Shown in pieces: positions 341-59,230 of a stretch of DNA of 64,000 nucleotides. A program made the position numbers and the translations under genes. This stretch comes from Hymenochaete sp. R1 (taxonomy: Eukaryota; Basidiomycota; Agaricomycetes; Hymenochaetales; Hymenochaetaceae): the NCBI GenBank assembly GCA_019400425.1, contig JAFREE010000054.1, positions 1 through 64,000 of the forward strand, in the 5' to 3' direction. The notes under the pieces are model-generated. The model did not search any database. It had not been told where the DNA came from and saw only the letters and a program-made list of their open reading frames with translations. Within the stretch, counting starts at the first letter, position 1; the number at the start of each line of letters is the position of its first letter.

Positions 341-374
341 GGACGGCGAAGAGTGTGCCGGCTCTTCGCCGCCC
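341..374 (-). other. Intronic stem-loop H5, copy 1
   Basis: Minus strand: arms GGGCGGCGAAGAG and CTCTTCGCCGTCC pair over 13 positions, including one G-U, around the loop CCGGCACA. It lies in inferred intron 8 and is identical to copy-2 H5. Confidence 0.85.
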
Positions 375-512
375 ATCTACATAAAGAATCGAACACTTAA
401 CTTGTCGTTATGCGCATACAAGAAGAGTCGAAGTCTTGAAGGTAGTAAGGAGTCTAGGCTGAGATCAAAGCAAATAACGTTAGAAAGAGTGTGCGTCATA
501 AAGGGAAGAGAA

Positions 513-544
513 GGCGATGGAGAGTGTGCCGGCTCTCCACCGCC
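513..544 (-). other. Intronic stem-loop H4, copy 1
   Basis: Minus strand: arms GGCGGTGGAGAG and CTCTCCATCGCC, 12 pairs, loop CCGGCACA. It lies in inferred intron 7 and is identical to copy 2. Confidence 0.85.
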
Positions 545-726
545 TGTAGAATAAGATATTAACTTAGCTACGGTAAGAGCGAGAATAGGGATTTTTAGAG
601 AAAGAAAAACTAGCTTCGGGAGATCTTGAGGTAAAGTAGTCGTTGCGTATTCGAATGATCTGTACTGGAATCGGGATAAAGAAAAATCAACAAGGATGCG
701 CAGAACGGATGGAAGAGAAAAGAAAA

Positions 727-758
727 GACAATGGCGAGTGTGCCGGCCCACCACCGCC
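727..758 (-). other. Intronic stem-loop H3, copy 1
   Basis: Minus strand: arms GGCGGTGGTGGG and CTCGCCATTGTC, loop CCGGCACA. Copy 2 has CTCGCCACTGTC. The T/C difference swaps a G-U for a G-C pair, so the stem survives the substitution. Confidence 0.85.
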
Positions 759-921
759 TATAGGATATAGAATTTACTTAGCTACGGTAAGGAAGAGATG
801 CCAGGCGATGATTGCATAGGAAAGGTCTTGAGTTTGATTAGTGAACCTGTACGCGAAGAATCTAGACAAATGAAAACAAGAGAAGTCAGCGACAATGTAT
901 AGCAAAGTAGAGAAAAGAAAG

Positions 922-953
922 GGCGATGGTGAGTGTGCCGGCTCACCACCGCC
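922..953 (-). other. Intronic stem-loop H2, copy 1
   Basis: Minus strand: arms GGCGGTGGTGAG and CTCACCATCGCC, 12 of 12 paired with one G-U, loop CCGGCACA. It lies in inferred intron 5 and is identical to copy 2. Confidence 0.85.
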
Positions 954-1157
954 TGCAGGATATGGAATTAACTTAGCTACGATGAGGATAATAGGCAGGT
1001 TCCACGTTGTTGGGGAGAAAAGCTTGCGATAGCCGTTGAACCGGAAAAGGAGTCGAACGGGGTACGAAGGTTGGGCTGCTGTGAGCACCCGCAAAAGAAT
1101 GTTTATGTGTGAATATAAGAGAAAAGATATTAGCGACTGTTCGAAGAAGAGGAGAAA

Positions 1158-1196
1158 GGCGGGTGAACAAGAGTGTGCCGGCTCTTGACCCCCGCC
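1158..1196 (-). other. Intronic stem-loop H1, copy 1
   Basis: Minus strand: 5' arm GGCGGGGGTCAAGAG, loop CCGGCACA, 3' arm CTCTTGTTCACCCGCC, paired with small internal irregularities. It lies in inferred intron 4. Copy 2 differs by A to G (still pairing, as G-U) and by G to A near the internal loop. Confidence 0.8.
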
Positions 1197-1470
1197 TATT
1201 GATAGAGATTGGACCCACTTTTTTGGGAGAAGGCGGAGTCGCCGAGCGCCTGAGAATAAAGGACACCCGGACGACCCCAAGGGGTGCAAGATGGCGAACG
1301 ACGGATTGATCCCGAGCGTTGTCTAAAGTAACGGAAGAAAGGAAGGCGTTAGCATTCTTCATAAAAGAAAAATTGGAGAGCAAGAAGCCTACTCACTGGG
1401 TCGAAGTTCTGCTTTGCGGTGGCTGGTGACGGTCCTTGGAAGATCTAGCATATAATAGTTAGACGAAGGG

Positions 1471-1515
1471 GAGGTGGCCTCTGGAGAGTTGATCAGGCTC
1501 TCCAGCGACCACCTC
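1471..1515 (-). other. Intronic stem-loop H0, copy 1
   Basis: Minus strand: an 18-nt stem (17 paired) with loop CCTGATCAA inside the 73-nt intron at 1445-1517. The stem begins one base after the donor GT, so the hairpin fills most of the intron. It is identical to H0 of copy 2. Confidence 0.85.
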
Positions 1516-1725: not shown

Positions 1726-2982
1726 TCACCACTGTGACCGCTCGCGCCAGCGGGGTGCTTTGACAACATCAAGCGTCTGTCTCTCCAACCATTCGAAAGC
1801 AAGACGAAGGAGCAGCTTGCAACGAGCGCGAGTGGGCGAGCGAGGTAAGGGAGGAGAAGCGCCAATGATAGTTGTCGATATCGCGTGCGTGGTGTCCTCG
1901 CCAACGTTGACGATATTGATTCCGGTGTCGACTTGCTCATCGTGGATGACGAGGGTTGAGATGTCACCCACCGGATCCGGACTGACTTGCTTAACGAAGA
2001 GCGGGATATGCCAGTCCTCACGATCGATGGTGATAAACTTGTCGTGTTCGTGCTCGTCAACAACCTCCGGAATGGGCGAGACTCTTGGCTGAGACGAAGC
2101 ATCGATACGAGGTGGCCTCCACTTCGGATCAAGCTTACGGATGGCTTGCTTGAATGCACTGTTGGCGCTGTGAATGGGATGCTTCTTCATCCATTCCTCA
2201 GTGGTGTACGTTGGCCAGGTCGAATTCTTCTTCGGGAAGTCACTCGGTGGAAGCCTGAGTGAACTGACGAAGACTGAAGAAGCAGGAGGTGGACCAGGAG
2301 TGACACCCACTGCGGCAGCAAACTGAGCGACGTTGGTCAAGGTTCGAGATGTAGACAAGCCTCCGAGGGAGCCGAAACCAAACCCAAGACCAGGAGCAGA
2401 GTCATTGTCGTCGTTGTCGTCGTTGTCGTCGTTGTCGAGCACCTCCTTGGGCGAGGGAAGTGGAGGAGAGACAGACTCCGAGTCGACGACCTCAATGTGC
2501 TGAGGAGCATCGATTTCATCTTTGACAGCAACTTTTGGTTGGTAGACCGGGACTTCCCATGTAGGCGAAGAGAAAGCAGAGTCGAGGGACGACGACCTGG
2601 TAGGGAAGAGGTCGTCGAAGAAATCCTCCTCGAGTTCCGGAGGAGAGAGGTCGGCATGGAAAGGTCCTTTGATGAGAGCAGCATATGGAACAGTGAGAGC
2701 GAGCTGAGGAACGCCAGCGAGTCCGAGACCTGGGACACCGACATGATGAGTGGCATAGTCGCGAGCTGCCTGCAGCTTCTTCTCGGCTTGATCGACTTGC
2801 TCTTGGTTGTACCAGTCTGGGATCTCACCGAGGAGGTCAGGAATGCTACGACGGGTACCGCCGACCAGAGCGGCAGAGTTGACGCCAGCGTCGGAGAAGG
2901 ACGTGTCCTGCACGGCGTTGAGTTTTGAAATGTAGTCTGGTTCCTCCCAAAGGAAGCAGACACGACGAATGTTGGAAGACAT
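1726..2982 (-). CDS. Orphan family protein, copy 1 (418 aa)
   Basis: I recognise no known family or domain. It is a single open exon starting with MSSNIRRVCFLWEEP. This ATG is chosen because copy 3 has a one-base deletion just upstream that breaks the longer frame, and because the longer frame in copies 1 and 2 only reaches a non-ATG codon. Visible features are: an acidic, Pro/Ser-rich body; a DND repeat tract near residue 190 encoded by repeated GACAACGAC units and variable between copies; a Gly/Phe-rich patch after it; a conserved basic segment around WMKKHPIHSANSAFKQAIRK; and a C-terminal basic amphipathic stretch ending RWRERSQW. There is no signal peptide and no membrane segment. Relative to copy 2 it lacks seven codons net after residue 41, in frame. 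It carries a TATA box 120 bp upstream and the hairpin-intron array downstream. Function unknown. Confidence 0.85.
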   Translation of the reverse strand: MSSNIRRVCFLWEEPDYISKLNAVQDTSFSDAGVNSAALVGGTRRSIPDLLGEIPDWYNQEQVDQAEKKLQAARDYATHHVGVPGLGLAGVPQLALTVPYAALIKGPFHADLSPPELEEDFFDDLFPTRSSSLDSAFSSPTWEVPVYQPKVAVKDEIDAPQHIEVVDSESVSPPLPSPKEVLDNDDNDDNDDNDSAPGLGFGFGSLGGLSTSRTLTNVAQFAAAVGVTPGPPPASSVFVSSLRLPPSDFPKKNSTWPTYTTEEWMKKHPIHSANSAFKQAIRKLDPKWRPPRIDASSQPRVSPIPEVVDEHEHDKFITIDREDWHIPLFVKQVSPDPVGDISTLVIHDEQVDTGINIVNVGEDTTHAISTTIIGASPPLPRSPTRARCKLLLRLAFEWLERQTLDVVKAPRWRERSQW

Positions 2983-14452: not shown

Positions 14453-17400
14453 TCAAATCAGCAAAATTCCGAGGCCGAGGTCATTCGTCATTATATCGTA
14501 CCAGTCCACGACTCCGCCACGCGCGTCGCGAACCATCCACACACGTTCCATGACGGAACGAACATTTCGCATATTCCCGATCACATCCTCAAGCGCCCGC
14601 AAGCGTGTGTGCACAAATTCGCGCTGCTCAGTGGTCTCGGCAAGACAGCCCGTCAGAAGGAGAGGGATAGTGAGGGCACGATCGATGGTGCGCTCCGGTA
14701 TGGTACAGAGCGTTTCGATGACGTTGCACACGCCATTGCGAATCTCGGGTACGCCTTGAAAAGTGAAGAAAGGTTGGTTCAGTTGAAGAAAAGTCGAAAT
14801 ATCGACGAACTTACTCGGTGATGGACCGTGCACTACAGACGCAAGGAAGAGTGATGCTGCATGCAGGTAAACCCGGGTTACGCTCTGGTAAAGGTTTTGG
14901 GGTTCAGGTATGTCGTTTGTTGTAGCATTCGAACCATAGGCCAGAGCCGCCGAAGGGGGGACAGGCGATGCAGACAAAGCTGCTTGAGATGCACCTGCCG
15001 CGCCCAGCATGGCTCCCACAGCAGATGCCTGTCCGAGCTGACTCATTGAACTAGAGGTCACGGGCCCACTGATACTGTGCCCTCCATTTGGACGTTGCGG
15101 GTGCATCTGAGTTGCAAGGCCTGCAAGCTTGATCCTCTGGCTTTCGGGAGTTGCTGTAGAGATGTGACCAGAGGACGGCATAGTGTTGAGATTGGCGTTC
15201 ATTCGTGCTGCTGGCTCTGTCATGTTGCTTACGAGAAGGCGGTGTTGAATGGAGGCGCCTCGTTGGAAAAGCTCGGCTTCATTGAGAGTCCCGAGTATGC
15301 GTTGTTGATCTTTCCATTGGGCGAGGGAGGCTGTTTCAGCGAGGACGATGATAATGTCGCTTGAAGAACCAACGAAGTTGTCCAAAGAGAACTGGTTGGG
15401 CTGGATGATGCTGCCGAAAATGCGTCGGTACAGGTTGAGGAAACGGGGAGCTTGGCGAGTAGAGAAAGCCGCGATGACATCGTACCACTGATTATAGGAA
15501 CTGTCAGCAACGGAGGAAGGAGTGGGTTGCGGAGTAGTGGAGATTAGACTTACGATCGTCATCTTCGCGGCTAGCTGCTCGGCTTCTCCCATGAGAGCTA
15601 GAATGTCGTCCGGCTTCTCGGTTTCGGTGGTTGGGATCCCAGTCTGGACAAACCAAGAACGTGCGTATTCCACATACGTTGCCCAATCGCCAGTGCCTCC
15701 TTGCAGAAGGTGATACCCAGCGAGGTGTAGGGAAGCTAATGCAGTCGACGCATCGTGGTGAGCGGCAAGGGAGCCCATTCCAACCTGATTAAGTTGGAAG
15801 TCGGCGCGGTCGAAGAATTGTTGAGAGGTGGCATTCCTGAGGTCGACATCGGGTTGGTCAAGCATGCGAGCGACACGGATGGTCTTGTTGTGCTTCGCTG
15901 CGAGGGCACATGACGCATTGACGAGAGGACCGAAAGGTTCGCGCATGAAAAGCTGGATAGGATACGGATACGCGTGTGACAAGAAGCGAGGACGACCACA
16001 TAATCATCCGATGGAATCGTAAGGTACGGGAACACCGAGAAGGAAAGGAACAAATTAGTCACATTGACTTTACATGAATTTATTATACAGGTTCCGCACA
16101 TACGTTCTTCAAGACCGAACGAGCATTCTCCGACCCAAAGACATACTGCATTGGCATTACGCTGTCAAAATAGTATGCGACGTGTGGGTCGACCAGTGAA
16201 GGATCCATCAACGCGTCGCCAGCAAATCCGTAACCAGATGAGGGAGTTGACCGACTATGATGTGACGGGGCATTGGCCATGGTGGCTATCTGGGAGGAGG
16301 GTCTGCTTGGTGTCTGATTGTAGGAAGTGTTGGGACCCGCTCCCGAAAAAAGCGATGAGTCGTCATTGCCGATCATGAGGGGCGAATTGCTGAGGCCCAT
16401 GGATGGGGTACCGGCGGGTTGGGAGACGCCTGGCATTGAAGCGACAGCACCGAATGCATCGGTTTGGCCGTAGTTGACGACGGAGGGTCCAGGATGGTCA
16501 TTGAAGAACGGCGAGCCGCCTGTGAGGAGAGAGCATTGATCAGTCAGAAATGGCTCATGTTCCAGAAGGTGAGAGGGTGAAGAGACGGAAAAACGAGAAC
16601 GGAGAGCGGAGTCTGGAGATGATTGACCAATTGCAGTTGCAGTGCAAAACAGAAGCTGGCAAGCCAACGAACGAAAAGCGAAATCGAAAATCGGCTGGAC
16701 TGAGACTGAGATGGATGCGGATGCGGGTGTGCGGGAGAAGCAAAAGCTGATGATGATGTAAAACCACCGAGGAAGGAGGAATGAAAAAGCAAATACAAAA
16801 TGCAGGGATAGCAGGAAGCGGGGCCCGTGGGAAAACAGAACACGAGCCAGGATTTAATCAATCGTTTCGGTAGGCGTTCATTTTATTGGCCGGCGCATTC
16901 AAGCTCGCTCTCTCGCCTCGCCAAAGGCCGCGACGGGTGATCCAAACGATTCCTGAAACGACTCCCCGCCTTCTTTTCTCTCGTCAACATTGGGAGGGCA
17001 TTGTTCGAGTAATGCGAAATTGGAGAGGAGATATGAACGTGGCCACCAACGCTTGATCCATGACAAATCCCCGACGTTTCAGGACTTGGTCATTTGGGGA
17101 AAGTTCACGCTACTCTCCCTTTTTCCCAGACAATGAGGAAATATGATGACCACGTTATCTCCGGCATCCCCTTGCGCCTCCGATCTGACGTAGGAAGAAA
17201 CGCAGTATGAACGCAAATATCCACATCAATGGACTCTGCGCAGCGAGGGTCGGCCACGCCATCAATCCTATTCAGGAATCAATGGCTATGCTGCTCCCTC
17301 CTATCCCACTACAGCTATCAAGTAGAGACGTCGGTGGATGCAGAAGGTCGATGCCTTATCAAAGAATCCTCCGAAGAGTTCGGATAGCCCCTCAAATATC

Positions 17401-25830: not shown

Positions 25831-28800
25831 CTAAACAAGCAAAAGCGAGAACCCTCCCACCCGTAATACCTCCCTCCAATTGACCTCACCACTGTCTAAT
25901 GGTGTCATCCTCTCCTCCCAAGGCTCGCCGCCTCTACTTAAGCGCGGTTTTTTCCCAAGACGCCGGTCCTCTGCATCCAACCTTGCCTTTCGTCGCAGAT
26001 TCCAGACTTGCTCCATAACCTGAACAACCTGCCCACAGTTCCCTGCTCCTCCAATCTCACTTCGCAAGACTTCTATGATCCTCTTTCGGTATCCATTGCC
26101 CGATGTCGGTTCATACTCATGTCCGCGTCCCCTCTTGCCCAAACGCGATGGGGGCCTCGAGTTCATACCAGGATAGAGGGTGGCACTCGATGTAGCTGTT
26201 TGAGGTGACGGGTTGTCGTCGAAACTATCGTCCTCTGTCATACAGCCAACGAGGCAAATGGGGAATACGACGCTCCGGATGACGCTGCTTCTGAGGTCTG
26301 GTGAGTGCGAGTTGCTTGGGACACGTTCGAGCGCTTCGACCGTTTTCTTCACGCATTCCGAGATTTCGGGGACGGAAGGTTTGTCGCCTGACAAGATTGT
26401 ATGAAGATAGAGTCGGGCCGCAGCCCGGAAAATAGACGCTGTGAGCCGCCGACGGTTCTCTGGCGAGTCGACGTCCCGGCCAAACCTGTCTGGTACAAAC
26501 TGACCTTCAAAATGAACACCGAAGTGGGGGACCGCATCCTCGAACGGCGCACGACCGAGGTAAGTGTTTTCTATTTCCTGGCCGCGACGCACGAGAGTAA
26601 CGGCAGAAAGACGACCCTCCCTGACTTCATCCTCCTTCCACGCCGATAAGGCCGAGATCTCCGCCAGAGCCATGAACGTCGCGTTATCGCAGCCCATCAC
26701 GTCCCACATCGAAAATCGTTTATCCCTCTCAGCATCTCTTTGCCTCCGTCTTTCTCCTGTTTCGATCTCGACTCCTGCACTCACCTCAACGAGCCTCGCT
26801 TCTTGAAGAGGCCCAAAGAGCGTGCGGTAGTACATCAAGAACCAAGGCTCGCGGACCTGCGTAACGCTGGCTAAGACCTCGAACCACATTGTCGTTCGGA
26901 CCACGAAGGCCCCGAGCGGGTTTGTCTCTGCGTAGGTCGCCATGACCTCCCACATCTCTCTGCCTTCCTTCTCTGCAGCAAACCGTGCTTCTTCAAGCCT
27001 ATCCTCTACCCACACGCGAGCGAAAGTGAGGAAGGCAGGCCAGTCTCCAACTCCTCCCGCGAAGAGCAACGCGGAGACGCACTGCAGACTCGCGAGCGCT
27101 TCGTGCTCCTGCAAGCGCTGGCCCTGCCTCTGTCCCATCTGCCTCAGCGCTAACGCAGATGTGGAGTTGACCATCCGGTCAAGCTCGAGGTGCGCCTCCT
27201 TCGTATAATCGATCTCCTCCTGCTCCGACGTCAGCAGAAACTTGTCCCTACCGGGAGTCGCATTCGGGTCGAGGGCCTTCGCGTCGCGTAAGCGCTTTAT
27301 GTGGACCTTGGCGACGGCGCAAATTGCCATACGAAGCACCTTGACCTGCATGACGCTCTCTTGGATCTGTTTGACAACATGTCTATCTGCAAAGAAGTAG
27401 ATCTTTGGTAAAGACGACTTCATGTAGTGATCGATGAATGGTGCGTCAGTACCCTCGAACTGAGGCACGTCGGGTCCTGGAGTCGGCGTCGGGCACCAAT
27501 TCGCGAATGTAGACTGCTGATATTCGGAAAGAGGGAATTGGAAGCCATAGCTATTGAAGAAGGAGGCTGGGTCTTGCTGCACGGCCATAGCCGGATCTGT
27601 GGGTAGAATCAAGCTATCGAAGCCGTTACCGAGGCCATCGAAGGCGAGATCATTGGCACCTGCGGCACCTCTGATTTGGTACGGAATTTCGCCTGTGTCG
27701 TACTCGTGGTTAGGGTTGAAGCTATGGTACAAGCGCCCAAACCTCGAAAACGTCGCGAACGACTGGTCGTTGAACAGGTCCAGTGAGGCCGCCTCAGGGG
27801 GCTTTTGCACGGTGGGACTTTGGTCCGAGTTATTTACTTCAATCGACGCGAACGAGGGTTTTCTTCCGAGCATAGACGCTGGGGGGATAAGCGCCGGGGC
27901 TACGTGAGTTTCCAGACCTGAGCCCTGGTACAGACCGCCCCTATCCAATCCGTTTGGATTCAAAATGCGGTTCAGGCCCATCGCCTCTGATGGACCAGCT
28001 ATTCCTTGATAATGAGCCAGCATCTGTGGTCCATTGTTTCCCTCCTCTTCTTCGGCTCCATTTGCTTGATGCACAGCTTGTCTTCGTTCATTGGGGTTGT
28101 TCGGGGCCTGAAGCCCTGTCCCTGTATAACAAAGTCCAAAACCGAAAAAAATAAAACAAAAAGAAAGTCAAAGGGGAAATTGTTGAAACAGGTCGTACAT
28201 ATGGATTGGAGAAGACGCACAAAATAGGAAATCGGCGAGATAGGGTATTGTAACAATGGTTTTTTTTCGCCATGTAAGTCATTCGGACGTTATTTGATAC
28301 AGCAAGAAGAGTTGCAATGCGATACACAGGACGTGCCATGCAGCATTATGACGTAGCCAGTATGTTATTCGACCGATTCGCGTCGGCATCGAAAGCAAAG
28401 CGAAAGCACGGAAAAATCAAGACGTGAAAAGTAGAGAAATGAAATGGATAAAAAGAGGATAAAAAATTGTAGTTGTGCGTGAGTGTATCGGTAGAGATTT
28501 TTACGGTGACAAGAGCCAGCCGAAATGCATGCGATGGCACCATGTTTCCATCAAGGCCCCACGATTCGATGAATGATTCATCATACGAGAAGCATCGCAA
28601 CCAAGAAGGCCGAACACCGAAGCGAAACAAGCTCAAGAGCAAGAAAAGAAAAGAATGATCGGAGAATACGGAAGTCACGTACGATGAGCAAGGCGACGGG
28701 GAAAGCGACGATAATCAAGACGATGAAAACGACAAATTAGAAAAAAAAATCAAGAAAAAGGGTTGAAACCCGTTGAGCACGCTCTACCCACGGAAGAAAA

Positions 28801-50713: not shown

Positions 50714-51365
50714 GAGCCTAAAGTCAGTAACATGTACGTGTGAGCGACGAGAGCTAGATCGGCTGAGATAACATTAGAAGTATGTCCACGATGCTATCTG
50801 TGGGTGAGAGAGCGAGAAGGCGAGAGAAGGGTGGATGGTGGAGGGAGGAAGGCAAGAGAGGAACCGTTCGTCATGTAAATTGGAGATGAGTGTTCAACTC
50901 AGCCACAGCCACCAATATACTCTCTCCCAGGCACACTCGACACTCACAAACAAACACGTCGCGTCGCGTCTCTTTTTCTCTTTTTCTCGCTCTGACCTCT
51001 CTCTGACCACCATCTTCTCAATGTTGAACAACGACAAAGAATTATGATTCATAATTCTTACATCTACTCAGAGTGTCTTTCATGATCTAATGATGCTGTT
51101 GAAATGGTGTACGTATGCATTTATTTTCGACATTAATGGTCAACTAAAATATCCAGCAGGAAAGCCACTCATCGAAGAACTCTCCTCACTGAATACTTGT
51201 AACTCCTTCTTCCAAGATCCTTCAAGATACGACTGCTCAGTTGCATAATGTCTCAGACAACGCGAAAATCCTCGGAGGTCATCACGCTCGATTATGACCT
51301 CATTCAAGTTCAGTCTGCTTGCTCTGTCTCTCTCTCTGGCTGATCGACACTGGTCCTCGAGGGAG
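50714..51365 (+). promoter_or_regulatory. Upstream region of orphan copy 2
   Basis: Divergent region between the kelch gene and orphan copy 2. From about 51,150 it matches the upstream region of copy 1 and contains the conserved GCTGATCGACACTGGTCCTC block before the TATA box. The CGCGT repeat lies at 50956-50969. Confidence 0.6.
50956..50969 (+). promoter_or_regulatory. CGCGT-repeat motif upstream of orphan copy 2
   Basis: ACGTCGCGTCGCGT, about 530 bp before the ATG, in the same orientation as the copy-1 and copy-3 motifs. The first ACGCGT unit is changed to ACACGT, while the two GTCGCGT units are kept. Confidence 0.5.
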
Positions 51366-51374
51366 GGCATATAA
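51366..51374 (+). promoter_or_regulatory. TATA box of orphan copy 2
   Basis: CATATAAAC, 131 bp before the ATG at 51497, conserved in all three copies. Confidence 0.75.
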
Positions 51375-51496
51375 ACAGCTCATCCTCTAGGATCTTAACC
51401 TTTTCCCCCCACTTGTCCTCGTGCTATCATCATCACTGCATACTACTTGACCAAGTCTCACTCGTGCTCACCAGCAATATCTTATCCTTTCTCACA

Positions 51497-52771
51497 ATGT
51501 CTTCCAACATTCGTCGCGTCTGCTTCCTTTGGGAGGAACCAGACTACATTTCAAAACTCAATGCCGTGCAGGACACGCCCTTCTCCGACGCTGGCGTCAA
51601 CTCTGCCGCTCTGGTCAGCGACAACAACAACAATACTTTCACCACTGCTACCCGTCGTAGCATTCCTGACCTCCTCGGTGAGATCCCAGATTGGTTCAAC
51701 CAGGAGCAAGTCGATCAAGCCGAGAAGAAGCTGCAGGCAGCTCGCGACTATGCCACTCATCACGTCGGTGTCCCAGGTCTCGGACTCGCTGGCGTTCCTC
51801 AGCTCGCGCTCACTGTTCCATACGCGGCTCTCATCAAAGGACCTTTCCATGCCGACCTCTCTCCTCCGGAACTCGAGGAGGATTTCTTCGACGACCTCTT
51901 CCCTACCAGGTCGTCGTCCTTAGACTCTGCCTTCTCTTCGCCTACATGGGAGGTCCCGGTCTACCAACCAAAAGTTGCTGTCAAAGATGAAATCGATGCT
52001 CCTCAGCACATCGAGGTCGTCGAGTCGGTGTCTACCTCTCCTCCACTTCCCTCGCCCAAGGAGGTGCTCGACAACGACGACAACGACGACAATGACTCTG
52101 CTCCTGGTCTTGGGTTTGGTTTCGGCTCCCTCGGAGGCCTGTCTACATCTCGAACCTTGACCAATGTCGCTCAGTTTGCTGCTGCGGTGGGTGTCACTCC
52201 TGGTCCTCCTCCTGCTTCTTCGGTCTTCCTCAGTTCACTCAGGCTTCCACCGAGTGATTTCCCGAAGAAGCACTCAACCTGGCCCACGTATACCACTGAG
52301 GAATGGATGAAGAAGCATCCCATTCACAGCGCCAATAGTGCATTCAAGCAAGCCATCCGTAAGCTTGATCCGAAGTGGAGGCCACCTCGTATCGATGCTT
52401 CGTCTCAGCCAAGAGTCTCGCCCATTCCGGAGGTCGTTGACGAGCACGAACACGACAAGTTTATCACCATCGATCGTGAGGACTGGCATATCCCGCTCTT
52501 TGTTAAGCAAGTCAGTCCGGATCCGATGGGTGACATTTCAACCCTCGGCTCCCACGATGAGCAAGTCGACACCGAAACCAATATCGTCGACGTCGGCGAG
52601 GAGACCATGCACGCGGTATCGACAACTATCATTGGCGCTTCTCCTCCCTTACCTCGCTCGCCCACTCACGCTCGTTGCAAGCTGCTCCTTCGTCTTGCTT
52701 TCGAATGGTTGGAGAGACAGACGCTTGATGTTGTCAAAGCACCCCGCTGGCGCGAGCGGTCACAGTGGTGA
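51497..52771 (+). CDS. Orphan family protein, copy 2 (424 aa)
   Basis: Very close to copy 1 along its whole length, including the C-terminal RWRERSQW. The start is MSSNIRRVCFLWEEP in context CACAATGTC. It differs from copy 1 by a longer Asn/Thr stretch after residue 41 (SDNNNNTFTTAT in place of GGT), a shorter DND tract and scattered substitutions, with no frame break. Against copy 3, many differences in the first two thirds are silent, for example Leu CTC/TTA and Ala GCT/GCG, which indicates selection on the protein. A second open frame of 170 codons overlaps the 3' half at 52338-52850; it is kept in copy 1 but shortened in copy 3, so it is not treated as a gene. Function unknown; no enzymatic motif visible. 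Confidence 0.88.
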   Translation: MSSNIRRVCFLWEEPDYISKLNAVQDTPFSDAGVNSAALVSDNNNNTFTTATRRSIPDLLGEIPDWFNQEQVDQAEKKLQAARDYATHHVGVPGLGLAGVPQLALTVPYAALIKGPFHADLSPPELEEDFFDDLFPTRSSSLDSAFSSPTWEVPVYQPKVAVKDEIDAPQHIEVVESVSTSPPLPSPKEVLDNDDNDDNDSAPGLGFGFGSLGGLSTSRTLTNVAQFAAAVGVTPGPPPASSVFLSSLRLPPSDFPKKHSTWPTYTTEEWMKKHPIHSANSAFKQAIRKLDPKWRPPRIDASSQPRVSPIPEVVDEHEHDKFITIDREDWHIPLFVKQVSPDPMGDISTLGSHDEQVDTETNIVDVGEETMHAVSTTIIGASPPLPRSPTHARCKLLLRLAFEWLERQTLDVVKAPRWRERSQW

Positions 52772-52980
52772 TGGCCGTTCCGCTCAGCACCAAAGGGTGA
52801 CGCATGCTTTCGATATTTTCCTCGTAAGTTACTTTATGCCAATACTTTGAGCTCAAATACTGATTGATATTCCAGCTTTCATTTCGTTTTCGATGGTGGC
52901 GCTTATTTGTGTGATATGTGGTCGTTGTGTGAAGGGGTTATTCTATGTATCTGTTGAGTTCGTTCTTGGTCGTGGAAGGT

Positions 52981-53025
52981 GAGGTGGTCGCTGGAGAGCC
53001 TGATCAACTCTCCAGAGGCCACCTC
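52981..53025 (+). other. Intronic stem-loop H0, copy 2
   Basis: Arms GAGGTGGTCGCTGGAGAG and CTCTCCAGAGGCCACCTC pair at 17 of 18 positions, loop CCTGATCAA. The stem starts right after the donor GT of a 73-nt intron and resembles a mirtron in layout. Confidence 0.88.
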
Positions 53026-53299
53026 CCCTTCGTCTAACTATTATATGCTAGATCTTCCAAGGACCGTCACCAGCCATCGCAAAGCAGGACTTTAACCCAG
53101 TGAGTACGCTTCTTGCCCTCCAATTTTTCTTTTATCCAAAATGCTAACGTCTTCCTTTCTTCCGTTACTTTAGACAACGCCCAGGATCAATGCGTCATTC
53201 GCCATCTTGCATCCCTTGGGGTCGTCCGGGTGTCCTTTATTCTCAGGCGCTCGGCGACTCCGCCTTCTCCCAAAAAAGTGGGTCCAATCTCTATCACTC

Positions 53300-53338
53300 G
53301 GCGGGAGTCAGGAGCCGGCACACTCTTGTTCACCCGCC
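53300..53338 (+). other. Intronic stem-loop H1, copy 2
   Basis: 5' arm GGCGGGAGTCAGGAG, loop CCGGCACA, 3' arm CTCTTGTTCACCCGCC, with a G-U where copy 1 has A-U. Confidence 0.78.
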
Positions 53339-53542
53339 TTTCTCCTCTTCTTCGGACAGTCGCTAATATCTTTTATCTTCTCTTTACATATAAACATTCT
53401 TTTGCGAGTGTTCACAGCAGCCCAGCCTTCGTACCCCGTCCGACTCCTCTTCCGGTTCAACGGTTATCGCAAGCTTTTCTCCCCGACAACGTGGAACCCG
53501 TCTATTATCCTCATCGTAGCTAAGTCAATTCCATATCTTACA

Positions 53543-53574
53543 GGCGGTGGTGAGCCGGCACACTCACCATCGCC
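53543..53574 (+). other. Intronic stem-loop H2, copy 2
   Basis: Arms GGCGGTGGTGAG and CTCACCATCGCC, all 12 paired (one G-U), loop CCGGCACA. Confidence 0.88.
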
Positions 53575-53737
53575 CTTTCTTTTCTCTACTTTGCTATACA
53601 TTGTCGCTGATTTCTCTTGTTTTCATTTGTCTAGATTCTTCGCGTACAGGTTCACTAATCAAACTCAAGATCTTTCCTATGAAATCATCGCCTGGCATCT
53701 CTTCCTTACCGTAGCTAAGTAAATTCTATATCCTATA

Positions 53738-53769
53738 GGCGGTGGTGGGCCGGCACACTCGCCACTGTC
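53738..53769 (+). other. Intronic stem-loop H3, copy 2
   Basis: Arms GGCGGTGGTGGG and CTCGCCACTGTC pair at all 12 positions, but four pairs are G-U, so the stem is stable only as sense RNA. Loop CCGGCACA. Confidence 0.85.
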
Positions 53770-53951
53770 TTTTCTTTTCTCTTCCATCCGTTCTGCGCAT
53801 CCTTGTTGATTTTCCTTTATCCCGACTCCAGTACAGATCATTCGAATACGCAACGACTACTTTACCTCAAGATCTCCCGAAGCTAGTTTTTCTTTCTCTA
53901 AAAATCCCTATTCTCGCTCTTACCGTAGCTAAGTCAATCTCTTATTCTACA

Positions 53952-53983
53952 GGCGGTGGAGAGCCGGCACACTCTCCATCGCC
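53952..53983 (+). other. Intronic stem-loop H4, copy 2
   Basis: Arms GGCGGTGGAGAG and CTCTCCATCGCC, 12 of 12 paired. Relative to H2 a U-A pair has become A-U, a compensatory double change. Loop CCGGCACA. Confidence 0.88.
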
Positions 53984-54125
53984 TTCTCTTCCCTTTATGA
54001 CGCGCACTCTTTCTAACGTTGTTTGCTTTGATCTTAGCCTAGACTTCTAACTACTTTCAAGACTTCGACTCTTCTTGTATGCTCATAATGACTGAAGAGT
54101 TAAGTGTTCGAATCTTTATGTAGAT

Positions 54126-54159
54126 GGGCGGCGAAGAGCCGGCACACTCTTCGCCGTCC
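54126..54159 (+). other. Intronic stem-loop H5, copy 2
   Basis: Arms GGGCGGCGAAGAG and CTCTTCGCCGTCC, 13 of 13 paired, loop CCGGCACA. Confidence 0.88.
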
Positions 54160-54445
54160 AGCACCTTGCGTGTTTTTACTGTTATTGTGATGGGTGACTC
54201 TTTTCTTTTTGTCTAGGTTCATCCAACTTCCCGCCAAAATCGACAGCCTATCTTTTTCCTACTTGCGACTTTTTCAACAATCGAACCCTTTCTTTTCTTT
54301 GCTGTAATTCTTCACTAATATTCAATTATACTTCGCTCTTAAATATATGATACTACGAATGAATACGCCAACGGCCCTTTGGTTATCGAATCGACTCTCT
54401 GTTCTACGTGAGTCATTTCCTTTTGCCCCCTTCCCCCCCTCATAC

Positions 54446-54473
54446 GGCAGCGAGCTTGGCACACTCGTTGACC
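54446..54473 (+). other. Intronic stem-loop H6, copy 2 (second loop class)
   Basis: Arms GGCAGCGAG and CTCGTTGACC pair with one bulged A, loop CTTGGCACA. Confidence 0.8.
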
Positions 54474-54651
54474 TTCCCTCTCCCTCCCCTTTTCTTCTTC
54501 CTCTTTCTTTTCCGCGTTCATGGATGCTGCTAATGTTACTGTCGCGTTTTCTTCCCTAGATTTCGTATCGCCGTCTTCTGGGCTCTCCGAACACCCTTGG
54601 CAATATTGGACAGGGATTCAGCAAGTTGAGTTATTGTTTCTTGGCCTGAAC

Positions 54652-54685
54652 GGGCGGAGAAGGGCCGGCACACCCATCGTTGCTC
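54652..54685 (+). other. Intronic stem-loop H7, copy 2
   Basis: Arms GGGCGGAGAAGGG and CCCATCGTTGCTC, 11 of 13 paired. The usually fixed closing GAG/CTC is here GGG/CCC, a compensatory change. Loop CCGGCACA. Confidence 0.75.
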
Positions 54686-54889
54686 ATCACTGTACCTTTT
54701 ACCTCTATTAAGATTAGTGACGTCTTTCTTTCATCTAGGTTTATTCTACTAGCCCCCTCGACATGCACGCCCTTTTCCTCTTCGATCTTTCGTTCACACA
54801 ATTAACGCCATTTGCCCTTCGATAATTTACCGCTCGCTTCTGATCATCAAGTAACTCATTTCTTTTCGGCTCCCTTTCTCCATCTCATA

Positions 54890-54914
54890 GCGGCGAGCCT
54901 GGCACACTCGTCGC
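54890..54914 (+). other. Intronic stem-loop H8, copy 2 (second loop class)
   Basis: Arms GCGGCGAG and CTCGTCGC, 8 of 8 paired (one G-U), loop CCTGGCACA. Confidence 0.83.
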
Positions 54915-55088
54915 CTTCCGACCTCCCTTCCTCTTCGTTTCCCTTCTACTATACGTTCACGGATGCTGCTAATTTTCGTTCATGTCTTCCATCCTACAGG
55001 CCTCAGTATTTTTTCGCAAGATTTCTCAAACGTCGCCAACACATAGAATATGTCTTCAACCAGTTAAGTATCTTTTCTCTGTTCAAGT

Positions 55089-55122
55089 GGGCAGCGGAGA
55101 GCCGGCACACTCTCCGCCGCTC
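55089..55122 (+). other. Intronic stem-loop H9, copy 2
   Basis: Arms GGGCAGCGGAGAG and CTCTCCGCCGCTC, 12 of 13 paired, loop CCGGCACA. Confidence 0.85.
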
Positions 55123-55374
55123 ATTACTTCTTCTTTATACCGCTATCATGATGGGTGACTTCTTTTATTCTAGGTGTACTCAAGCTTCCGCCAATTATAA
55201 CTAATAAAACTTCACTTATTTAAATCTTTCCCATCGTCCTAGTTCTCTACCCTTTTTGTCGCGAAACGATACTAATGTCAAAGCATATCCTTTTCATCGA
55301 GAATACAGATATACGATGTGCTATCTACTTTCTTCTCAGTGAGTCGATTTTTCTTACTCCTTTCCCCACTATAT

Positions 55375-55402
55375 GGCGGCGAGCTTGGCACACTCGTTGA
55401 CC
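55375..55402 (+). other. Intronic stem-loop H10, copy 2 (second loop class)
   Basis: Arms GGCGGCGAG and CTCGTTGACC with the same bulged A as H6. One A-U pair of H6 is G-U here. Loop CTTGGCACA. Confidence 0.8.
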
Positions 55403-55573
55403 TTTCCCTTCCTCCCGTTCCTTCTCCTTCACCGCGTTCATGAATGCTACTAATATTAGTATTTCCCGTTTGCGATCAGGTTTTTTTTTCGCTGTCTGCA
55501 GAGCCCTTCGAGTTCCTCAATAATATGTCCACGAGATTTGAATCAGTTAAGTATCTTTTTTCATTGCAGAGGC

Positions 55574-55607
55574 GGGCGCCGGAGAGCCGGCACACTGTCC
55601 GTCACTC
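55574..55607 (+). other. Intronic stem-loop H11, copy 2 (weakened)
   Basis: Loop CCGGCACA and inner arms GGAGAG/CTGTCC with one G-G mismatch. The lower stem has further mismatches, so this member seems to be decaying. Confidence 0.6.
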
Positions 55608-55804
55608 ATCATTGTATCTTGTTTGCTTTAAATCTCATTATATGCGCTCAATTCAACTTTCTTTCTTTAGGCCTGGAACAAGTCAACAAAGTATCGCATC
55701 CAAGCATATTTGGTCAGAGGACGGCACATCTTGGGTCTGATTTGTTTTTTGGGTTCTTGAACCGTGTAAATTGTTTCTGTCCATTTCCCTATCCCCCTCC
55801 CTAC

Positions 55805-55831
55805 AGTGGCGAGCCTGGCACACTCGTCACT
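55805..55831 (+). other. Intronic stem-loop H12, copy 2 (second loop class)
   Basis: Arms AGTGGCGAG and CTCGTCACT, 9 of 9 paired, loop CCTGGCACA. Relative to H8 a C-G pair has become U-A. Confidence 0.85.
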
Positions 55832-56049
55832 TCCGACTCTCTCTCTCTCTCTTTTCATTTTGTTGTCCGTTTCTGAGTACTGCTAATGTTATCTCTCCTA
55901 CCCTTCTTTATTCAGACGCTCCGATGCAAGGCAAATTTGTGTATATATTCGTAAATTGGTAGTGACTCGACTAACACATTCCATCCGTTCGCATTACATT
56001 AGAATCGACCCAAGTCAGTACATTCCCTCCTTCCCCATCCTCATCTCCG

Positions 56050-56074
56050 CGTGGAGGGCCTGGCCAGCCCTTCA
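56050..56074 (+). other. Divergent intronic stem-loop H13, copy 2
   Basis: Arms GTGGAGGGC and GCCCTTCAT, nine pairs with two G-U, loop CTGGCCA. It is the last and most divergent intronic hairpin of the array. Confidence 0.55.
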
Positions 56075-56162
56075 TCGCCCCCCGTTCCCCTCCCGTATCT
56101 TGTCTTCATATACTTATTTCTGCTTTCCGCTTTCTCTCGTTTTCTCCCTTTAGGACCCATAA

Positions 56163-56181
56163 GGGGTGCCCCCGGCACCCC
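56163..56181 (+). other. GC-rich hairpin in the last exon of the array
   Basis: Perfect eight-base arms GGGGTGCC and GGCACCCC around CCC, ten bases after the last acceptor. It lies outside the introns and differs from the intronic class. Confidence 0.65.
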
Positions 56182-56334
56182 AAGAAATGCGGGGATGGAT
56201 AACACTAATTTACTGCGAGCTCTTTTTCATATTTTGACTATACATAATTTGTACTATTCTGTATCATTTGTAATTTCTATCTTCGCACCAATTTTTTTTC
56301 TCTTCTACCGGCAGTCGCCCCTTTAGTCGATCGT

Positions 56335-57129
56335 GCACCTGACATTCCAATGTCCTAACCCTAGCCCAATCATAATAAACCATAGTTATTTTTTAATTAT
56401 TACTATTGGTACTTATCTAAGGTCCTTACTATATTGGGTTAAATATAATGGCGATTCGTGTGACAGGCAGGTTTAAAATATAATATATACAGTGGTCATG
56501 CTGAACAGGGTAAGATTTACTGTTCGTCTGAAATAGCCTCATGGGTCAGTACCAGTGGTAGCGGTGACTGGCGACATGGATCCTTCCTCACCTTGATCAG
56601 GACCTGTTTTCCATGCCGAGCCGAATTGAGCACTTAGTGTATCATTGCACCAAACGTATGATTCACCGTCTGGTATTGAAGCTTGAACTGCTCGCCGTCA
56701 TCTAATCAAGTCGATGTAGGTTGCATGCAAGCAATTCGAGGCTCCGGTGAGACAACAAACAACGGAAGTTTAGCTTTCGGTTCGTAAGAAAGAAGAGGAT
56801 ACTGCTGATGAGCTAATATTAATTTTATTCTCACGGACGAAAAACGCGTCGCGTCGCGTCCGTGGTTCACTAGTACTGCTTGTAGTCTTGGCCTTCGACC
56901 ATCATGACCACCGCGCCTGCCTCACAGTCAACGTTCTCGTTTTAGTTCTAGTGCAGACCCATTTATAATATTAAGTCGAGGGTATGGAAATTATTTATGA
57001 ACTTATATTTTATTTCAGACTTGAAGACATCGGCGTCTCTGCTTACTGGCTGACGGTGACCTCATTTGACTTCGGCCTGTTTGCTCTGTCTCTCTCTTTG
57101 GCTGATCGACACTGGTCCTCAAGGGAGGG
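56335..57129 (+). promoter_or_regulatory. Region between copy-2 array and orphan copy 3
   Basis: AT-richer sequence without ORFs of note, then the upstream region of copy 3. The CGCGT motif lies at 56844-56859, flanked by ACGGACG and CGTCCGT, which could pair around it. Conserved promoter blocks start near 57,060. Confidence 0.5.
56844..56859 (+). promoter_or_regulatory. CGCGT-repeat motif upstream of orphan copy 3
   Basis: ACGCGTCGCGTCGCGT, the same sequence and orientation as upstream of copy 1, about 400 bp before the ATG. The surrounding sequence is otherwise diverged. Confidence 0.5.
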
Positions 57130-58536: not shown

Positions 58537-59230
58537 TAATGGCCGACATTGGCCGTTCCGTCCAGCATAAGGGACTGACACGTTCTTTCGTTCTTTCTCT
58601 TGTGAGTCGCTTTCATACGAGTGTGCGACACGTCTTCTAATTATCAAACAAGCGTTTCTCTCTTTTGGGCCTTTGGATTTTTTTGGGATTTTGGATTTTC
58701 TGGATTTTTTGTGTGGGTGATGAAGCGGACCGGACCGGACATTGCGGATACAAATAAGTGTAAGTCCTTGTTTCATTCTACCCCATGGGCAGCGGAGAGC
58801 CTGATCATCTGTCCAACGTCCACCACTTTCCTGAATCTCTCTTACCATTTGCATTGCATAACTAACATATTTTACTCCTTTGTGTCCAGGCTTTCCTTCC
58901 CTTGGGCCAGGGTGTCGTCGTCGTAGGCGGCACCCTGGTCACACCCGCGATCCTCGTACGAAGCTGCCTCGAACACTTCCTCTATGGATGAGGCGGCCGA
59001 CTACCTGCGTGACCGGACCGGACCCTTCGTATCGTCGTCGTGCGTCATCTACACGGCTTCGCGCCCAGGACATCGTACGTTTAGCTACCTCGAACACTTC
59101 CTTCGGGATGAGGCTGGTTGGGCGTTGGTTTTGTCTTGGCCTGCGGTGCAGTGTGGCTGACGTTTCAGGTGGAAGGATTTGGATGGATAGGGGTTTTCGT
59201 TCTTGCTTCTCTTCTTTTTAAAATCATAAT
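58537..59230 (+). repeat. Reduced hairpin-intron region, copy 3
   Basis: Two introns follow the stop codon at positions equivalent to introns 1 and 2 of the other copies: 58602-58652 (GTGAGT, CTAAT, AAG) and 58760-58889 (GTAAGT, CTAAC, CAG). The second holds a stem-loop. The following exon contains arms GGCCAGGGTG and CACCCTGGTC (58902-58937) and a diverged direct repeat of about 45 nt (units near 58955 and 59075). ACCGGACCGGAC occurs on both sides of the intron. The CCGGCACA array is absent. Confidence 0.65.
58787..58821 (+). other. Intronic stem-loop, copy 3
   Basis: Arms GGGCAGCGGAGAG and CTGTCCAACGTCC, loop CCTGATCAT. The loop matches H0 of copies 1 and 2, and the intron is in the same place; four mismatches weaken the stem. 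Confidence 0.65.

Follow-up and report, generated by a model that had tools for sequence, protein, structure and literature searches.

The first 64,000 bases of contig C287 of the basidiomycete Hymenochaete sp. R1 (JAFREE010000054.1, positions 1 to 64,000, hereafter the window; assembly GCA_019400425.1, 27,796,547 bases in 336 contigs) contain, downstream of an orphan open reading frame (ORF), a series of predicted introns most of which carry a related hairpin. In agreement with the original prediction, which had placed 16 introns by donor, branch site and acceptor and had seen a stem-loop in 14 of them, the same map was recovered at 52824-56153, with branch-like sites and with introns 1 and 3 as the two lacking a hairpin. 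The whole analysis consists of DNA sequence and predictions, on which the intron positions, their splicing and the factor discussed below all rest. Within this scope, an RNA hairpin family without a described match is shown, present once per intron in 14 of the 16 predicted introns and at a nearly fixed distance from the donor. The reading favored here, to which we would give a little less than an even chance, is that the region represents the intron array of a multicopy bipartite gene, composed of the orphan ORF and a noncoding many-intron module that can persist without an intact ORF, and that the loops would be read by an RNA-binding factor controlling splicing.

The predicted introns of this array, referred to as copy 2, and the hairpins within them are the following:

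52824..52875 (+): predicted intron 1, without hairpin, acceptor not conserved in copy 1
52953..53051 (+): predicted intron 2, donor GTTGAGT, hairpin 52987-53019, loop CCTGATCAA
53100..53173 (+): predicted intron 3, without hairpin
53278..53417 (+): predicted intron 4, donor GTGGGT, hairpin 53303-53334, loop CCGGCACA
53519..53634 (+): predicted intron 5, donor GCTAAGT, hairpin 53543-53574, loop CCGGCACA
53714..53831 (+): predicted intron 6, donor GCTAAGT, hairpin 53738-53769, loop CCGGCACA
53928..54042 (+): predicted intron 7, donor GCTAAGT, hairpin 53952-53983, loop CCGGCACA
54099..54216 (+): predicted intron 8, donor GTTAAGT, hairpin 54127-54158, loop CCGGCACA
54408..54559 (+): predicted intron 9, donor GTGAGT, hairpin 54443-54475, loop CTTGGCACA
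54625..54738 (+): predicted intron 10, donor GTTGAGT, hairpin 54653-54684, loop CCGGCACA
54851..54999 (+): predicted intron 11, donor GTAACT, hairpin 54886-54918, loop CCTGGCACA
55063..55173 (+): predicted intron 12, donor GTTAAGT, hairpin 55090-55121, loop CCGGCACA
55339..55479 (+): predicted intron 13, donor GTGAGT, hairpin 55372-55404, loop CTTGGCACA
55546..55670 (+): predicted intron 14, donor GTTAAGT, hairpin 55575-55606, loop CCGGCACA
55766..55915 (+): predicted intron 15, donor GTAAAT (not conserved in copy 1), hairpin 55802-55834, loop CCTGGCACA
56014..56153 (+): predicted intron 16, donor GTCAGT, hairpin 56048-56078, 7-base loop CTGGCCA

The loop starts 36-48 bases downstream of the donor in all 14 hairpins, and 12 of the 14 loops are either the 8-base CCGGCACA (eight hairpins) or the 9-base CYTGGCACA (four hairpins), with introns 2 and 16 carrying the other two. 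Introns with the 8-base loop are termed class B and include introns 4-8; in introns 9-15 class A, defined by the 9-base loop, alternates with class B. The earlier observation of nearly fixed loops and closing pairs on variable lower stems is thereby borne out, with two loop types and drifting arms. Within the window, GGCACACTC occurs 17 times (0.34 expected), 15 of these within two arrays. Around the branch site, class A introns (e.g., 54408-54559) contain a conserved block, CGTTCATGRATGCTGCTAAT, that exceeds the branch consensus in length, and a similar TCATGATGGRTGAC is found in many class B introns.

Three copies of the orphan ORF lie in the window, and copies 1 and 3 are accompanied by hairpins of their own:

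51497..52771 (+): orphan ORF copy 2, 424 amino acids, upstream of the array
1726..2982 (-): orphan ORF copy 1, 418 amino acids
57256..58536 (+): orphan ORF copy 3, 426 amino acids, without array
342..1509 (-): six copy-1 hairpins, loop starts at 1497, 1181, 941, 746, 532 and 361
58788..58819 (+): single copy-3 hairpin of the intron-2 type, loop CCTGATCA

Copy 1 had been described as repeating the first eight introns at the same lengths, apart from one base in intron 8, and the alignment gives equal lengths for introns 1-7 and an intron 8 that is one base shorter. Its array extends further, since C287 ends inside intron 9 in a poly-G run (window positions 1 to ~76), an assembly break; copy 1 resumes on contig C100, at whose end introns 10-16 are found with seven hairpins (L010). 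Besides the rest of copy 1 on C100, related arrays are present in the same genome on C56, on C262 and at both ends of C221. In total 48 hairpins were listed (14 in copy 2, 13 in copy 1, eight each in C56 and C262, four in C221 and one in copy 3). The C262 array is interrupted within a hairpin loop, where GAGCCG is followed by unrelated sequence (L013, ~5120). Part of the array growth occurred by tandem duplication of a two-intron unit, as seen from spacings of 439, 481 and 433 bases.

Alignment A2 contains 18 hairpins from C56, C262 and C221. A covariance model built from 12 copy-2 hairpins recovered 17 of these, 16 with E <=2.1e-5 and the one in C262 intron 12 with E 0.29, C56 intron 11 being unlisted. 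Hairpins of the intron-2 and intron-16 types score weakly (11.9 to 23.7 bits; C56 intron 2 unlisted), so that their membership in the family rests on position and shape. Searches of the window and of loci L009-L013 yielded no Rfam match at gathering score.

Across 41 hairpins (39 distinct), 84.2% of cells were paired, and two-sided changes preserving the pairing were found in 11 of the 12 stem pairs, amounting to 65 cells. Shuffled controls had a mean of 28.6 cells and register-slid controls 6-26, and none of 500 shuffles reached the observed value on any of five measures, although these shuffles do not preserve the relatedness among the hairpins. G-U exceeded A-C combinations both in the upper eight pairs (48 vs 8) and in all twelve (67 vs 22), which points to an RNA of the sense strand and not to a DNA hairpin. 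The predicted hairpin is, on this evidence, a selected RNA structure. In the hairpin of intron 14, copy 2 has G-G and copy 1 G-C at the third stem pair counted from the loop. For class B introns, columns 81-88 of alignment A3 might form a further helix with columns 115-122 (79.7% paired), in which bases 3′ of the hairpin would pair with the branch region in place of the lower stem, a possible switch. Its covariation was not significant, as 137 of 500 shuffles reached its three two-sided pairs, and it is kept as a lead only.

The comparison of copies 1 and 2, which spans 13 of the 14 hairpins because intron 9 is missing in copy 1, showed where changes are tolerated. Only 1 of 107 loop bases and 2 of 78 bases of the three closing pairs differed, as did 4 of 112 donor bases, all four in intron 15, so that the donors outside it are unchanged (0/105). 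In the remainder, 129 of 1478 exon bases, 23 of 166 bases of the last exon and 112 of 1078 other intron bases were changed. Loops, closing pairs and donors therefore stand out as constrained, the rest of the stem only weakly (13/234; Fisher 0.12 against exon); acceptors, another element expected of spliceosomal introns, are no better conserved than exons (14/150). The same pattern holds for the distant arrays, for which loop and exon identities were 64/75 (85.3%) and 532/927 (57.4%) in C56, 65/68 (95.6%) and 301/634 (47.5%) in C262, 16/17 (94.1%) and 143/270 (53.0%) in C221a, and 19/20 (95.0%) and 141/258 (54.7%) in C221b, values that derive from pairwise alignments of hand-chosen segments of diverged sequence with gap-rich exons. 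As shown by these comparisons, the predicted exons change at about the same rate as the remaining intron sequence, while the loop and closing pairs are constrained and the arms drift with compensation. When the predicted exons were joined, an open stretch of 171 codons resulted, which was equaled in 23 of 500 first-order Markov sequences; hence, no coding signal is claimed for them.

Donor type and loop class are linked. GYTRAGT, each time preceded by A, is the donor for 22 of 27 class B hairpins and for none of 14 class A hairpins (Fisher 3.3e-7, uncorrected for shared ancestry), the exceptions in class B being intron 4 of copies 1 and 2 (GTGGGT), C56 intron 5 and C262 introns 5 and 8. Two classes of predicted introns are thus shown, one with the 8-base loop and the atypical donor AGYTRAGT (B), the other with the 9-base loop and other, mostly consensus-like donors (A). 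For the intron-2 hairpins of copies 1, 2, C56 and C262 the donor is GTTGAGT in three of four cases, and for copy 3 it is GTAAGT; introns 5-7 have GC at the 5′ end. Of 14 AGYTRAGT sites on both strands of the window, 11 are array donors. Genome-wide, the combined signature TGTGCCGG-N26..42-ACTYARCT yielded 20 matches, all 20 of them in the six arrays, against none for the reversed control, and all 15 exact matches of GAGCCGGCACACTC lie in arrays as well. The alternative that GYTRAGT is a branch site was set aside on inspection by eye, with the AG before the hairpin absent in several copies and no evident upstream donor.

The canonical donor is AG/GTRAGT. Relative to this, AGYTRAGT has one letter changed or, read differently, represents GTRAGT with one inserted base, and is atypical by this general consensus. 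Such a sequence can, as far as base pairing goes, bind the 5′ end of the U1 small nuclear RNA (snRNA) in a shifted or bulged register, and shifted and bulged U1 registers have been described (excerpt of PMC9311317).

Copies 1 and 2 of the orphan ORF differ by a dN (nonsynonymous divergence) of 0.024 and a dS (synonymous divergence) of 0.101, and dN/dS ratios of about 0.23, 0.38 and 0.41 among copies 1-3 indicate purifying selection. No Pfam family above cut-off, no NCBIfam and no protein-database match was obtained for the protein (none of 7996 scored candidates at E 0.001), and its structure model has a mean predicted local distance difference test (pLDDT) score of 32.9. The association of ORF and array is loose in both directions. 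Copy 3 has an ORF and one hairpin with no array in the window. The C56 ORF lacks its first part (matches begin at residue 184) and contains frame changes and a stop, and the C262 ORF is affected by large deletions and stops; C56 retains loops, with no promoter identified there, and C262 retains both promoter and loops. That arrays were kept beside a ruined ORF suggests a function of the array independent of the ORF. The contig ends C99 and C228 carry the same promoter, with approximately the first 60 codons missing, and presumably represent the 5′ parts of the C221 copies.

A loop that stays fixed on interchangeable arms argues for a protein that reads the loop, and the near-fixed distance to the donor, together with the link between loop class and donor type, suggests that such a factor acts on splicing; the many hairpin copies suggest that it acts on the array as a set. 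We infer that one RNA-binding factor would read the loop on the pre-mRNA near the donor. As AGYTRAGT would pair with U1 out of register, class B donors are probably weak and dependent on that factor, or else repressed by it. The introns of the array would then be removed or kept together, which might make it both a switch and a multivalent assembly site. Put at its fullest, the proposal would be a self-contained RNA control element of a new type, in which a dedicated factor reads the same loop in a dozen introns of one transcript and decides, via out-of-register U1 donors, on splicing for all of them together. The chain of introns would thereby become a switch or scaffold with many sites, which in some copies has outlived the adjacent protein gene; we advance this fuller version tentatively, with the chances rather against it. 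What gives the hairpin family its interest is the combination of a missing Rfam match and strong covariation with an unusual place, namely successive introns of a noncoding array that adjoins an orphan ORF. Should a dedicated factor read the hairpins, they would constitute a naturally occurring splicing switch with many sites, well suited to studying the purposeful use of atypical 5′ splice sites, be they GC donors or donors that pair with U1 in a shifted or bulged register. Moreover, constrained intron elements between free exons suggest that selection on a gene can fall on its introns even where these encode no small nucleolar RNAs (snoRNAs).

Several observations weigh against a factor-controlled splicing array. 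Tandem duplication alone could link donor type to loop class, so that the Fisher value given above overstates independence. When one mismatch was allowed in the 14-base core, five of nine genomic matches fell inside arrays and four outside (reversed control, 3+3), and the one outside match that was examined had a chance-like 4-bp stem. A looser signature gave 56 matches genome-wide (22 in arrays) against 47 in the control, which means that dispersed targets cannot be claimed, and no second gene with the donor-loop signature was found in the genome, leaving a wider regulon unsupported. Nor was the U1 gene of this genome found: RF00003 matched nothing here or in 14 controls and is hence uninformative. 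A single ATACTTACCTGGC match, considered as a U1 gene, was not U1-like. Between copies 1 and 2, conservation is lost at two acceptors (introns 1 and 14) and at one donor (intron 15, absent in copy 1); by eye, C56 intron 8 lacks the 5′ half and loop of the hairpin, and C56 intron 11 has CTAGGTAAA. Folding of single introns also gave a mixed picture. Four of the 14 hairpins are weak, with mean probabilities of the five loop-closing pairs of 0.26, 0.41, 0.46 and 0.00 for introns 9, 10, 11 and 14, respectively; only five of the 14 hairpin introns are more stable than shuffles at z < -2, and predicted donor accessibility ranges without pattern from 0.02 to 0.86. Intron 16 folds with a probability of 0.82-0.86 and a 7-base loop.

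Among the competing explanations, a multivalent decoy is unlikely but deserves the most attention. According to it, the array would soak up one RNA-binding protein, either on the unspliced transcript or on long-lived excised introns, and the introns would merely deliver the binding sites. In its favor, a predicted transcript would contain many loops of nearly the same sequence (12 of 14 in copy 2), six arrays carry them, and the signature was not found in other genes; the bound protein is putative. A precedent exists in meiRNA, a repeat-bearing fungal long noncoding RNA (lncRNA) that is a decoy for Mmi1; meiRNA/sme2 resembles the present proposal in presenting repeated sites for one protein on a noncoding RNA, but it uses determinant of selective removal (DSR) sequence motifs, whereas the array described here consists of structured hairpins inside introns (excerpt of PMC4077057). 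However, a decoy would require neither the donors that are unchanged outside intron 15 nor the near-fixed distance between loop and donor. Rather improbable is an inside-out host gene, in which each intron would release a stable small hairpin RNA in the manner of a snoRNA host. Its hallmark, conserved intron elements and unconserved exons, is what was observed here, and intron-encoded snoRNA clusters in noncoding fungal hosts exist; UHG/gas5-like host genes, including Neurospora clusters, share with the array a conserved RNA in several introns and a host of little coding potential (excerpt of PMC2780460). In contrast to such hosts, the array has a fixed-loop, free-arm hairpin, atypical donors tied to one loop class and a linked orphan ORF. 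Compared with described snoRNA families, the window and L009-L013 yielded nothing at gathering score, the one sub-threshold match, on the minus strand, scoring 19.5 bits vs 42. A box C/D snoRNA would have its boxes together with a terminal stem, an H/ACA snoRNA a pair of hairpins plus H and ACA boxes; neither architecture was recognized, as the consensus folds contain a single hairpin (15 of 27 class B and all 14 class A introns; boxes by eye). We know of no small-RNA class that combines a fixed loop, free arms and a link to the donor class, which further counts against the release of small RNAs.

MicroRNA (miRNA)-like products would call for conserved arms: such a precursor has a conserved arm, a variable loop and a stem long enough for Dicer. 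The hairpins presented here show the reverse, with a fixed loop and arms that vary with compensation in a modeled stem of 12 pairs, and small RNAs derived from the arms are therefore disfavored. Accordingly, of the three options raised by the original prediction, intron-derived small RNAs lose ground, while a platform for an RNA-binding protein and splicing control, singly or together, fit better with the donor distance and the donor-loop link. Contacts between loops are very improbable; here hairpins would kiss through palindromes at the core of their loops (CCGG; TGATCA, intron 2; TGGCCA, intron 16) and compact or condense the transcript. The palindromes are present, and introns 2 and 16 carry 6-base palindromes in different letters, but the 9-base class lacks a perfect palindrome and GGCACA is retained beyond what kissing would need. 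We give hardly any weight to the idea that mobile or freshly duplicated introns, such as introner-like elements, share the hairpins through recent copying only. The two-intron duplications mentioned above agree with it, and fungal introner-like elements and sister stwintrons are likewise related spliceosomal introns with predicted, stable structure; introner-like elements are, however, scattered over many genes, whereas the introns described here occur in one gene family only and have constrained loops (excerpts of PMC9024468 and PMC8469720). No dispersed, near-identical introns were found in unrelated genes genome-wide, with all 20 signature matches in arrays and the four of nine one-mismatch matches outside them chance-like; moreover, intron bodies diverged while loops stayed frozen and arms show compensation.

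Two further known systems bear comparison with the proposed splicing array. The Vts1/Smaug recognition element has a loop of the form CNGGN0-4. The class B loop likewise starts with CNGG (26 of 27), in contrast to the class A loops CCTGGCACA and CTTGGCACA (0 of 14), and the conserved ACA end lies outside that element, which thus does not fit both classes. Intronic structures controlling splicing have been named for yeast RPL30, RPS14B and RPS17B (excerpt of PMC4937481); they resemble the present proposal in that a structured RNA acts on splicing in cis, but are single structures in protein-coding genes, whereas here up to 14 related hairpins lie in a noncoding array. The original prediction knew of no described fungal locus of this design, and this is in line with the lack of Rfam matches and with the literature matches listed (open-licence PMC papers), among which no such locus was found. 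Judged from its sequence, we call the array categorically new, because no known class compared with it could be matched in all of its defining features, with only the broad inside-out pattern present.

The flanks of copy 2 contain the following motifs:

50954..50969 (+): promoter motif ACACGTCGCGTCGCGT, differing at one position from the motif that precedes copies 1 and 3 and the C262 copy
51368..51377 (+): TATA-like CATATAAACA, also in C262 and C99 and with one change in C228, where the ORF is broken or start-less
56327..56368 (+): conserved 3′ end TCGATCGTGCACCTGACATTCC ... TCCTAACCCTAGCCCA, at which the BLAST match to the C100 copy ends

Upstream of the family copies, ACGCGTCGCGTCGCGT was found at 50954 (copy 2, one mismatch), 56844 and 3526 and on C262, C99 and C228. 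Since it is enriched genome-wide (11 exact matches; 30+39 at <=1 mismatch, palindromic ones counted on both strands, vs 1+3 in the control), it represents a general motif of this fungus and was rejected as a mark of the family. At the other end, all five arrays with a known 3′ end terminate in the telomere-like TCCTAACCCTARCCCA (56353-56368; C100, both C221 copies, C56 with one mismatch). The genome contains five exact copies, four of them at arrays, and the reversed control gave 19+23 at one mismatch, which makes the placement notable and not the count. At a transcript end, TCCTAACCCTARCCCA is possibly the site of a putative telobox-binding factor. Telomerase RNA has a template followed by a conserved pseudoknot and CR4/5 (excerpt of PMC12506658); this candidate was rejected, as BLAST homology between copies stops at the telomere-like motif or within ~13 bases past it and the motif letters differ among the five arrays. 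At a C21 match to the 3′ motif, the covariance model detected no hairpin in 10 kb. For one protein encoded near the family, the closest named relatives (nine matches) come from Phellopilus and Coniferiporia, behind two unnamed ones, as would be expected of an agaricomycete near Hymenochaetales. Elsewhere in the window, two ORFs (14453-15982 and 25831-28074) contain the fungal-specific transcription factor domain PF11951.

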